Origin: an uncultured Kordiimonas sp.
GTDB taxonomy: Bacteria; Pseudomonadota; Alphaproteobacteria; Sphingomonadales; Kordiimonadaceae
NCBI GenBank assembly: GCA_947492375.1
Contig: CANLMI010000001.1
Span: 930,001 to 994,000 of the forward strand
Reading direction: 5' to 3'
DNA length: 64,000 bases
The translations under genes were made by a program, and so were the position numbers. The notes under the pieces were generated by a model. The model was not told where the DNA came from, did no database searches, and was given only the letters and a program-made list of their open reading frames with translations. Shown one piece after another: positions 48,675 through 54,778 of the stretch (the first letter of the stretch is position 1; each line of letters opens with the position of its first letter).

Positions 48675-48755
48675 GACCACTTCAGTTTAAAGCCATTAGC
48701 TTAATCGCTACATCCAGCATTTTTGAATACCATACTATCAAACAGGAAGATTATA

Positions 48756-50180
48756 ATGTCTAAATATACCAACCTATCATCAGAAGACTTCTTAAAGCTT
48801 ATCAAGGATACTGATGCAGAATGGGTGGACCTACGCTTCACTGATCCAAAGGGTAAATGGCAACATCTTACAATGGCAGCCGATGTTATTGACGAAGATA
48901 TGCTTGAAGAAGGCTTTATGTTTGATGGTTCTTCCATTGCAGGCTGGAAGGCAATCAACGAATCCGATATGATTTTGATGCCTGATACAAATTCTGTAAC
49001 AATTGACCCATTTACAGCAGACGTAACGCTCGTCATCTTCTGTGATGTATTAGAGCCCGCAACTGGTCAGCCATATGACCGTGACCCACGTTCAACAGCG
49101 AAAAAGGCCGAAGAATATCTTAAATTCTCAGGTGTTGGCGACACGGCATACTTTGGCCCAGAGCCAGAATTTTTTGTCTTTGATCATGTTCAGTTTAAAT
49201 CTGATTACTCTGGCGCAATGTATAAAATTGATGACATAGAAGGCCCTTACAACTCAGACCGTGAATATGACGGCGCAAACTATGCTCACCGCCCTCGCGT
49301 AAAAGGTGGTTATTTCCCTGTAGCACCTGTTGACAGTCTTGTTGATGTTCGCGGTGAAATGGTGAAAACCATGAAAGAGATGGGCCTGAAGATGGACAAG
49401 CACCATCACGAAGTTGCTGCATCACAGCACGAATTGGGCATGGAATTCTCAACGCTCACCAGCACAGCGGATAACGTGCAGATCTATAAATATGCAACAC
49501 ACCAAGTTGCCCATACATATGGTAAAACAGCAACGTTTATGCCCAAGCCTGTTGCAGAAGATAACGGCTCTGGCATGCACACGCATATGTCGATCTGGAG
49601 AGAAGGTAACCCGCTTTTTGCCGGCAGTGGTTATGCTGATCTGTCAGAGCAAGCGCTATACTATATCGGTGGTATCATTAAGCATGCGAAAGCGATTAAC
49701 GCCTTCACCAATCCATCAACAAACAGCTACAAACGTCTTGTTCCTGGTTTTGAAGCGCCAGTGCTTCTTGCATATTCAAGCCGTAACCGTTCGGCTTCAT
49801 GTCGTATTCCATATACTGCAAGCCCGAAAGCCAAGCGTGTTGAAATCCGCTTCCCGGACGCAACAGCAAATCCATATCTTGCTTTTGCAGCGATGCTGAT
49901 GGCTGGCCTTGACGGTATTGAAAACCGCATTCATCCGGGTGACGCTATGGACAAAGACCTTTACGCGCTTCCACCAGAAGAGCTGAAAGATGTTCCAACA
50001 GTTGCTGGGTCACTTCGTGAAGCGCTCGAAGCATTGGATGCTGACCGTGACTTCCTTAAGAAAGGTGATGTCTTCACTGATGATCAAATCGATGCATATC
50101 TCGACCTTAAGTGGGAAGATGTTCATCGCTTTGAAATGGCGCCGCACCCAATTGAATTTGATATGTATTACAGCGCATAA
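48756..50180 (+). CDS. glnA: Glutamine synthetase, type I
   Basis: GlnA makes glutamine from glutamate, ammonia and ATP as a dodecamer. The protein has 474 residues from ATG 48756, which follows AGGAAG; the frame could open at 48723 but that adds no family sequence. The beta-Grasp N-domain ([14 protein letters not shown]), catalytic [16 protein letters not shown] and the adenylylation loop [10 protein letters not shown] with its Tyr near residue 400 are present. The regulated tyrosine means activity is probably tuned by GlnE and P-II. Confidence 0.97.
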
Positions 50181-50212
50181 TATATAACCAGACAATTAGA
50201 ACCTACCCATTA

Positions 50213-50239
50213 AGGTGCCTGTTTTCAGGCGCCTTTTTT
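50213..50239 (+). terminator. Terminator of glnBA
   Basis: AGGTGCCTG pairs with CAGGCGCCT (one G-U) around TTTT and is followed by TTTTT. It begins 33 bp after the glnA stop. Confidence 0.93.
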
Positions 50240-50371: not shown

Positions 50372-51010
50372 ATGCACATCGATTACACAGCAGAGCAAAA
50401 GGCACTCCAGTCAAAGCTCGCTGAGGCAAATATTAACCCAACCAGTTTTTTAGCAACTGACTATCTCAATCATTTCAATGAAATCGTCATGTTGATGGAA
50501 ATGGTTCCTGATATGCCTGATATCGCGGAAGAAACCTATGAATGGCAGCCGAAAAGCTATCCACAGCATTTTGCAGATAGCGGTTTTACAGCCAAAGACC
50601 TTGCAATCGATGCATTCGAAAAAGCGCCTAATGTTATCAGAACACGGTTTGACAAAGTTTGCGGCGACATTGACGAGCTTGTTTTGAAAACTATCGAAGC
50701 CCTGAAGCTTGTGAACGCTCCGGAACGCGGCCTATCGCCTCAAGCCAGTGAATTTATTCGCAGCCGTATTTCAGAGATACAACACCTCTTAATGCTCTTA
50801 AATCAAGTCATCCACGGCAAACTGGAAGACGCTGACACAAGCACTGGCCCTGATATCGGTGCTGATACTGGTGCAAATTCTGGTGCAGGCACTGGCATTG
50901 ATATGACACCAGAAATCGATGAAGAGGCAGCGATGGCGGCTGCAATGCTCGAAAGCACAGACGAAGAAGGCGCGCAAAGCCAGGAAGATATCGACAAGCT
51001 TTTCGATTAA
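50372..51010 (+). CDS. Uncharacterised protein ending in a FliM-like CheY-binding motif
   Basis: This 212-residue protein has no family I can name with confidence. The first 150 residues are mostly helical and soluble (FDKVCGDIDELVLKTIEALK, then SRISEIQHLLMLLNQVIHG). Residues 155-180 form a low-complexity Asp/Gly/Ala/Thr linker (IGADTGANSGAGTG). The tail is acidic and ends SQEDIDKLFD. That ending resembles the SQxEIDALL peptide at the N-terminus of FliM, which binds phosphorylated CheY. A chemotaxis or response-regulator role is inference; no chemotaxis genes are nearby. It is a single gene after the glnBA terminator. Confidence 0.65.
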   Translation: MHIDYTAEQKALQSKLAEANINPTSFLATDYLNHFNEIVMLMEMVPDMPDIAEETYEWQPKSYPQHFADSGFTAKDLAIDAFEKAPNVIRTRFDKVCGDIDELVLKTIEALKLVNAPERGLSPQASEFIRSRISEIQHLLMLLNQVIHGKLEDADTSTGPDIGADTGANSGAGTGIDMTPEIDEEAAMAAAMLESTDEEGAQSQEDIDKLFD

Positions 51011-51206: not shown

Positions 51207-51878
51207 CTAAACTTTTATTGGGCCGTACATACCAGTATTGATAAGCGCGTTCCAAATGGTCTTGATTACTTGACCTGTTTCTTGATTTATAAATAGAGAC
51301 GAGCGCGCGCCATTTGGCTTGCCTAAAAAATAGGGTCGCATAATTTCCCATGTTTCAGCTACATCAGAATGACGCCAACAATGGAGTTCCTTTTCTAACA
51401 AAAGCGGAATTGCCAGTGATTTTGGAATCGTGCCATCAAGTAACAATGGCTTATACCATTCACACTTCACCAACACAGGGAATGTTCCAGCTGCATAAAG
51501 TTCAACATCTAGTTTTTCTGCGGCTATTGAGGCAGCAGGGTTGGGGCGAAGCGCGCCAACAGAAGTCAACACTTTGTTTTGTTTTTCTTCAGTGTAAGGA
51601 CAGGTCACAAACCCACTGGCAAAACAAACTGTGTGATCTAACCCAGAATAACCACACTCACTGCTTGGATATATCACTGGACAATAATCATCATCATTAT
51701 CAGCAACCAATGGATGCCACGAAGGATAAGTGTCGACAACCGGCCCATATGTATCAATTAGATCGAGCACAAACTCTTTGCGTTGCTCTCTTTCGCTTCC
51801 TCTGAGTCCTTTTGGTATTAGATATTGTAAAGCACTTTCTTCATTGCTTCTCTTAGATTCGTCTGCTCTGAAGGCCAT
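51207..51878 (-). CDS. Orphan conserved-looking protein, unknown function
   Basis: I do not know a function for this 223-residue protein. The start at 51878 follows GGAGAG by 7 bases. It is soluble, without a signal peptide or membrane helix. Distinct segments include LGPVV-like YGPVVDTYPSWHPLV, SSECGYSGLDHTVCFASGF, DGTIPKSLAIPLLLEKE and SSLFINQETGQVIKTIWNALI. Several Cys, His and Trp sit in these blocks, and the composition looks like a folded enzyme or binding protein. It stands alone in low-GC DNA with noncoding sequence on both sides, which suggests acquisition by transfer. Confidence 0.7.
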   Translation of the reverse strand: MAFRADESKRSNEESALQYLIPKGLRGSEREQRKEFVLDLIDTYGPVVDTYPSWHPLVADNDDDYCPVIYPSSECGYSGLDHTVCFASGFVTCPYTEEKQNKVLTSVGALRPNPAASIAAEKLDVELYAAGTFPVLVKCEWYKPLLLDGTIPKSLAIPLLLEKELHCWRHSDVAETWEIMRPYFLGKPNGARSSLFINQETGQVIKTIWNALINTGMYGPIKV

Positions 51879-52332
51879 TAACTCTCTCCGCAAAAACATT
51901 AAAAATTACAACTATGCATTAAATATAGTTTTTATGCATGAAAAATCAATAATTTGTTTTCATTTTGAAGTTCATAGCGTTAAATCAGGAGCATTAATGT
52001 TAGCAGATGCGTCTTCCCATAGTGCTAATTCAGCAAAAATTTGATTTAATGAATTTCCGTCTTGGTGCGCCATTTCCGTAATATCACAACCATCTAACTC
52101 CAGTGGGGGTGTTGAGAATTTTGTGTTAAGCTCGCACCCAACTTTTTTGATGAAAGTTCCCTAGGACGCGCCTTTAAAACGTAAGTTTGGAAAGAGGTTA
52201 TCTTCTGAACAATATAAACCGTAGCCTTGATGATCAGGCCAATAGTAATTTTTCTATCAAAATTATTGCACCGATTTGATATAATACCCCCTATTCGCAA
52301 GAAAAGATGCCATAGAGATAGAATACATTTAA
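51879..52332. other. 454-bp AT-rich region with a small open frame
   Basis: It holds the promoter region of the orphan gene and an open minus frame 51972-52160. The sequence between is AT-rich with no terminator or repeat I can support. Confidence 0.4.
51972..52160 (-). pseudogene. Small open frame or gene remnant
   Basis: On minus a 62-codon open frame runs from a TAG at 52163 to a TGA at 51972. From its only ATG (52073) it encodes 33 residues, including DGNSLNQIFAELALWEDA, which reads like real protein with an amphipathic helix. The upstream codons (TPPLELDGCDITE) also read like protein but lack a start. There is no good ribosome site. It may be the 3' end of a truncated gene. Confidence 0.3.

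Positions 52333-52735: not shown

Positions 52736-54778
<2,043 letters not shown>

Follow-up and report, generated by a model that had tools for sequence, protein, structure and literature searches.

A C-terminal FliM/CheZ-type peptide in a candidate CheY-docking protein family of the Alphaproteobacteria

The gene, its product and its neighbours

The window, a 64,000-nucleotide stretch of the genome of an uncultured Kordiimonas sp., contains at positions 50372-51010 a gene for a protein whose C-terminus reads ...SQEDIDKLFD. The gene, its parts and its nearest named neighbours are as follows.

48723..50180, + strand: glnA (glutamine synthetase), the upstream neighbour (Pfam)
50212..50235, + strand: terminator-like hairpin with a T tail, after glnA (one found; shuffled sequences give a mean of 0.8, sd 1.1)
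50372..51010, + strand: whole gene of the candidate CheY-docking protein, which has no name; ATG start, 212 aa plus stop, with the same start Met in many homologues
50372..50821, + strand: helical domain, residues 1-150 (AlphaFold model); T29-D30-Y31-L32-N33-H34 opens helix 29-44, and W58, Y63 and H66 are conserved
50822..50980, + strand: acidic disordered linker, residues 151-203, of varying length
50981..51007, + strand: FliM/CheZ-type peptide QEDIDKLFD, residues 204-212, named from sequence resemblance and conservation
52742..54778, + strand: parE-like gene, downstream, named from a reading of its sequence

In an AlphaFold2 model computed with six sequences, residues 1-150 are all-helical, with block pLDDT values of 83-95; the predicted helices span residues 7-18, 29-44, 49-56, 63-69, 75-84, 87-113, 116-119 and 123-147. 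This agrees with the first-pass annotation, which had called the body helical from the letters alone. The acidic flexible linker that it had placed before the peptide is present in this protein: residues 151-203 include 14 Asp or Glu, no Lys or Arg, and 27 Gly, Ser, Thr or Ala among 53 positions, and the pLDDT falls below 50 across residues 153-186 and 189-201. As a general trait the linker did not stand. Its long acidic form is an elaboration in some members, and in two Azospirillum copies it is nearly absent, with the peptide almost directly after the bundle. The peptide region itself is a short predicted helix (residues 204-209, pLDDT about 60).

The hairpin behind glnA may make the 50372-51010 gene a separate transcription unit, but a count of one against a shuffled mean of 0.8 is weak on its own. 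Between the gene and the parE-like gene lies an open reading frame of 230 aa on the opposite strand (51207-51899, -); it has no Pfam match, and none of the 85 fetched loci of at least 4 kb holds a match to it.

The genome context in relatives, which had been proposed as a check on a CheY-related role, was examined, and the neighbours are not chemotaxis genes. Among 25 loci (L031-L055), some of them from the same genomes, glnB and glnA occur in 23 and a parE-like relative in 15, counted as presence in the locus and not as strict adjacency. No widely common neighbour of the homologues was found in loci from the class. These contain 67 directly adjacent same-strand ORFs; 50 were scanned, together with one methyl-accepting chemotaxis protein (MCP) gene in locus L186 that was known beforehand. 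MCP domains are present in two of these 51 ORFs among the matches listed, one found and one put in; MCP adjacency is treated as chance. The L186 gene (L186:2770-4518, genome G422), which lies upstream of the homologue, is an odd combination in its own right: a single frame in which GIY-YIG and UVR matches precede an MCP signalling domain. In loci L177, L181, L182 and L183, sensor histidine kinase genes adjoin the homologue on the opposite strand. With glnB-glnA and parE-like neighbours in the order and mixed ones in the class, the context gives no clear support.

Distribution of the family and of its terminal peptide

The genome itself contains one match to the 50372-51010 protein at E up to 0.001. 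Of 59 relatives in the order, with the window's own genome counted among them, 48 gave a homologue in a search with the single protein (E up to 1), and in each of these E was below 1e-20. One holder with a species name is Eilatimonas milleporae (Kordiimonadales). A profile of 41 sequences extended the family to 71 of 385 genomes of the class, from many alphaproteobacterial families, so that a factor limited to 'this lineage', as the first-pass annotation had put it, proved too narrow a description. Eleven of 72,556 plasmid records carry a homologue; all are Azospirillum, on large replicons, and many are without annotation. One annotated Azospirillum copy is labelled a hypothetical protein. A homologue search of viral contigs gave none that could be confirmed.

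Conservation of the C-terminus was assessed in 118 homologues, one sequence per genome (48 from the order and 71 from the class, with the window's genome counted once). The pattern Q..[IV]D.[LIMYF] lies inside the last 14 residues in 94 of the 118 and inside the last 40 in 104; when the last-40 tails are shuffled, only 0.2 of 118 have it in the last 14. The FliM-like character of the last ten residues is borne out by sequence. This docking-type peptide has the form Q-(D/E/A)-(D/E)-I-D-x-L-F.

Fourteen homologues are without the pattern in their last 40 residues. Four of these are technically incomplete: G019 has a frameshifted end, G023 and G040 run into a contig end, and G084 is interrupted. 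Homologues without the terminal motif had been named beforehand as what would count against a CheY-related role; they do occur, as 10 of 114 intact sequences, and are the exception and not the rule. By eye, the motif is clearly lost or degraded in seven of the ten (G088, G127, G219, G266, G298, G369 and G415), and the other three (G126, G322 and G396) have a near-motif.

At the other extreme, the pattern matches at least twice in 13 homologues. In G250 and G342 the first match seemingly lies in the last bundle helix, which leaves 11; by reading of their tails, ten of these have two copies of the peptide and one has three. A C-terminus with three tandem docking-type peptides is that of L037:5912-6679 (G058). 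Two further sequences are unusual. The homologue at L178:4945-5319 (G355) has 125 codons and keeps the terminal peptide although the last bundle helices are missing, through either an internal deletion or an assembly error. The end of the gene in loci L025 and L033 (G019, MAG JAALKD010000007.1) diverges past about residue 150, probably by a frameshift in the MAG.

The motif is rare as a protein ending. Within the window it ends one of 135 ORFs of at least 100 aa, namely 50372-51010. In fetched loci of at least 8 kb the count is 70 among 3339 ORFs, defined from stop to stop with a minimum of 100 aa and including spurious frames. By reading, 64 of the 70 belong to the 50372-51010 family, two are CheZ, both of which had been fetched as such, and four are unrelated, for a background near 0.12%.

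At the DNA level, the peptide was sought with the pattern CARRMNGANATHGAYNNNMTN, which encodes Q-[KNTDEA]-[DE]-I-D-x-[LIM] with Leu as CTN only. It matches six times in the 3.94 Mb of the window's own genome and never in the reversed control. The six sites are the 50372-51010 gene, the genes for FliM and two CheZ proteins, and two open frames of 29 and 31 codons; among ORFs of at least 100 codons, the pattern is therefore common only to FliM, CheZ1, CheZ2 and the 50372-51010 gene. As CARRMNGANATHGAYNNNMTN misses Leu codons TTA and TTG and several residues, this list of such peptides is incomplete; DQSSIDALL inside CheZ2 is an example. FliM has LDQDEIDSLLGF near its start, and CheZ1, encoded beside FliM, ends in NSQDEIDAILASFDF. 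CheZ2 (328 aa) directly follows a 128-aa receiver (cheY-like) protein and ends in VSQDDIDALFG. Both CheZ proteins match PF04344 and retain QDLTGQ or QDITGQ. In the receiver-CheZ2 gene pair (L207:8232-9602, own genome C2), the internal DQSSIDALL and the terminal SQDDIDALFG amount to two peptides on one phosphatase. A stricter pattern ending in L-F gives two matches in the own genome, the 50372-51010 gene and CheZ2, against one in the reversed control.

In seven further genomes CARRMNGANATHGAYNNNMTN matches 47 times, and 30 of these loci were retrieved and read. In these 30, every match in the final 13 residues of a frame that codes for 100 aa or more belongs to the 50372-51010 family or, by coordinates, to CheZ; the rest fall in FliM, at internal sites of other frames, in one frame of 29 codons and, in G020, at the end of one of 78 codons. 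Among the 17 matches outside the loci read, six fall by coordinates in FliM, CheZ or the 50372-51010 family.

Co-occurrence with CheZ, FliM and CheA

Genomes were searched for FliM, for CheZ (called present at E up to 0.001) and, in 16 cases, for CheA; the tests treat genomes as independent and ignore their relatedness. In the 385 genomes of the class, CheZ is present in 65 of 71 holders of the 50372-51010 family vs 83 of 314 others (odds ratio 30, Fisher p 4e-25), and FliM in 64 of 71 vs 149 of 314 (p 6e-12). Among FliM-positive genomes of the class alone, CheZ is found in 61 of 64 holders vs 76 of 149 others. Within the order, CheZ accompanies the gene in all 48 holders, vs three of the 11 other genomes, and FliM in 47 of 48, vs six of 11, and in two of these six the match is weak. 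None of the six genomes of family f5 in the order (G032, G038, G044, G049, G053 and G057) has the 50372-51010 gene or CheZ; FliM is absent from four and a weak match in two, and a CheA-type domain is present in five.

FliM was not detected in seven class holders (G101, G127, G170, G181, G219, G266 and G369), nor CheZ in six (G084, G088, G127, G143, G170 and G219). Of the FliM-less holders, G127, G181 and G369 have a CheA dimerisation domain, which was not detected in G101, G170, G219 and G266. The peptide tail is gone or degraded in five of the holders that lack FliM or CheZ (G088, G127, G219, G266 and G369), kept in four (G101, G143, G170 and G181) and unreadable in G084. It is thus kept without detectable FliM or CheA in G101 and G170, and without detectable CheZ in G143 and G170. 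Counted by genome, with G084 left out, the tail is unclear in four of seven FliM-less vs three of 63 FliM-positive holders (Fisher p 0.0012), and in three of five CheZ-less vs four of 65 CheZ-positive holders (p 0.006). Placed on the tree, motif loss and loss of FliM or CheZ are not significantly associated, with just two or three usable independent pairs; this count leaves out G019, G023, G040, G084 and G027, a genome that is 76% complete and in which FliM was not found.

Could the peptide bind a receiver other than the flagellar CheY, such as the one encoded next to CheZ2, and act in a pathway that does not control the motor? The only other strict-pattern match in the own genome is CheZ2, which sits behind its own receiver gene, and G101 and G266 have CheZ and the 50372-51010 family with FliM and CheA not detected. 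The presence of FliM in 64 of 71 holders, and the degraded peptide of G266, speak against such a pathway, and we consider it unlikely, if worth keeping in mind. A tail that arose by coincidence, on a protein unrelated to CheY, would suit the metabolic neighbourhood in the order and the mixed neighbours in the class. It would sit badly with the conservation of the peptide, its restriction to FliM and CheZ, and the co-occurrence described above, and is very improbable.

The helical body and a possible action on CheY

In the body, D30, Y31, N33, W58 and Y63 are identical in 118 of 118 homologues, and N36 (116/118), H66 (115/118), E37 (114/118) and H34 (112/118) are near-invariant. The invariant body residues persist in the peptide-less homologues of G127 and G219, so that the bundle may also serve a separate function.

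No family in Pfam or NCBIfam covers the 50372-51010 protein or the other members. Sequence searches against solved structures gave nothing below E 0.08, and Foldseek on the model gave no specific fold match (best E 0.51). VIA-align listed talin, ApoE and designed bundles with a best Z score of 8.4, which by the tool's own description is common for helical models; no relationship to these is claimed. A histidine phosphotransfer (HPt) identity was rejected on the histidine: the best candidate, H34, is another residue in six homologues, and for comparison with the four-helix HPt fold both structural searches list generic helical bundles. A metal site at H34/H66 is weakened by the variation of both residues.

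The likeness to CheZ (PF04344), including the receiver-adjacent paralogue, lies in the layout: a helical body, a flexible linker and, by sequence resemblance, a C-terminal Q-x-[DE]-I-D-x-[LI]-[LF] peptide. PMC7750401 describes CheZ as an N-terminal helix, a four-helix bundle, a linker and a C-terminal helix, and gives the C-terminal CheY-P binding region as conserved between the CheZ of E. coli and that of an alphaproteobacterium. Homology of the bodies, by contrast, was rejected. At E up to 1, PF04344 finds no match among the 41 members, and hhalign of these members against 29 CheZ sequences, a comparison of the kind that the first-pass annotation had recommended, produces an alignment over the last 20 columns only (probability 77.9). 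That annotation had also seen no CheZ active-site motif, and rightly so: QDxTGQ, the DxxxQ catalytic site of CheZ, is absent from the 50372-51010 protein, and the conserved columns of the 118 homologues do not form it. With FliM the protein shares the peptide type, which is N-terminal in FliM and C-terminal here; neither the protein nor the 41 members match the FliM domain (PF02154) at E up to 1. The FliM N-terminus is the target of CheY and may tether it for a second contact, according to PMC7355467. CheC and CheX phosphatases share an acid-x-x-amide pair on a helix, D30-x-x-N33 in the present family. They have an alpha/beta fold, in contrast to the all-helical model of the 50372-51010 protein.

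This pair is the basis for a reading of the protein as a new CheY-P phosphatase unrelated to CheZ, in which the peptide would dock CheY-P and D30-x-x-N33 would place the attacking water. According to PMC3510030, CheY phosphatases need an acid plus an amide, as ExxN in CheX and DxxxQ in CheZ. Both residues of the pair are invariant and lie on predicted helix 29-44, and the order of bundle, linker and C-terminal helix is that of CheZ (PMC7750401). However, the pair is equally invariant in the peptide-less G127 and G219, D30 stands at a helix start and may be structural, and two CheZ that retain QDxTGQ are already encoded in the own genome. D30-x-x-N33 may allow a phosphatase role and does not establish one; we treat it as a lead and regard such activity as rather unlikely. 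The broader proposal of a widespread, undescribed class of CheY-P phosphatases, with a bundle unrelated to CheZ, CheC/CheX/FliY and Rap, a convergent DxxN plus docking peptide, and a place beside CheZ in the same cells, is unlikely too.

The bundle might instead act with no chemistry at all, as a passive sink or localiser that keeps CheY-P at the pole, the membrane or another protein. Several bundle residues are near-invariant and no enzyme family matches, and the two or three peptides of 11 homologues would suit a buffer. Against this, the present analysis points to no partner or place, and the idea is a tentative one, at clearly less than even odds.

The preferred reading, to which we assign a probability of roughly 0.7 on the grounds of sequence, is that the 50372-51010 protein is a soluble CheY-docking protein that works beside CheZ and FliM and tunes CheY-P. 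The first-pass annotation had proposed a new CheY-recruiting factor. That role gains indirect backing from the peptide shared with FliM, CheZ1 and CheZ2 and from the co-occurrence with CheZ and FliM; the restriction to one lineage has to be given up. The holders are mostly flagellated alphaproteobacteria, and on the best reading of the data the family is laid out like CheZ but is not CheZ. Because the protein carries the same CheY-gripping peptide as the flagellar switch and CheZ, its probable target is the signal that directs swimming. No description of the family was found among the literature matches listed, and a literature match to the peptide letters gave nothing relevant.

A possible course of events starts with the C-terminal peptide, which would form a short helix in the groove of (phospho-)CheY that also takes the peptides of FliM and CheZ. 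Captured CheY would then be tethered by the linker beside the helical domain, and FliM, both CheZ paralogues and the 50372-51010 protein would compete for CheY-P. The lifetime or availability of CheY-P would probably be altered, and the swimming bias tuned. We infer CheY binding, a preference for CheY-P and an effect of the bundle, be it sequestration, relocation or dephosphorylation.

Azospirillum is a laboratory model of chemotaxis, and the presence of a homologue there makes deletion and binding tests simple. The docking peptide also offers a genome-wide route to listing candidate CheY partners. If CheY is bound, many alphaproteobacteria would gain a further class of peptide-docking CheY protein besides FliM and CheZ.
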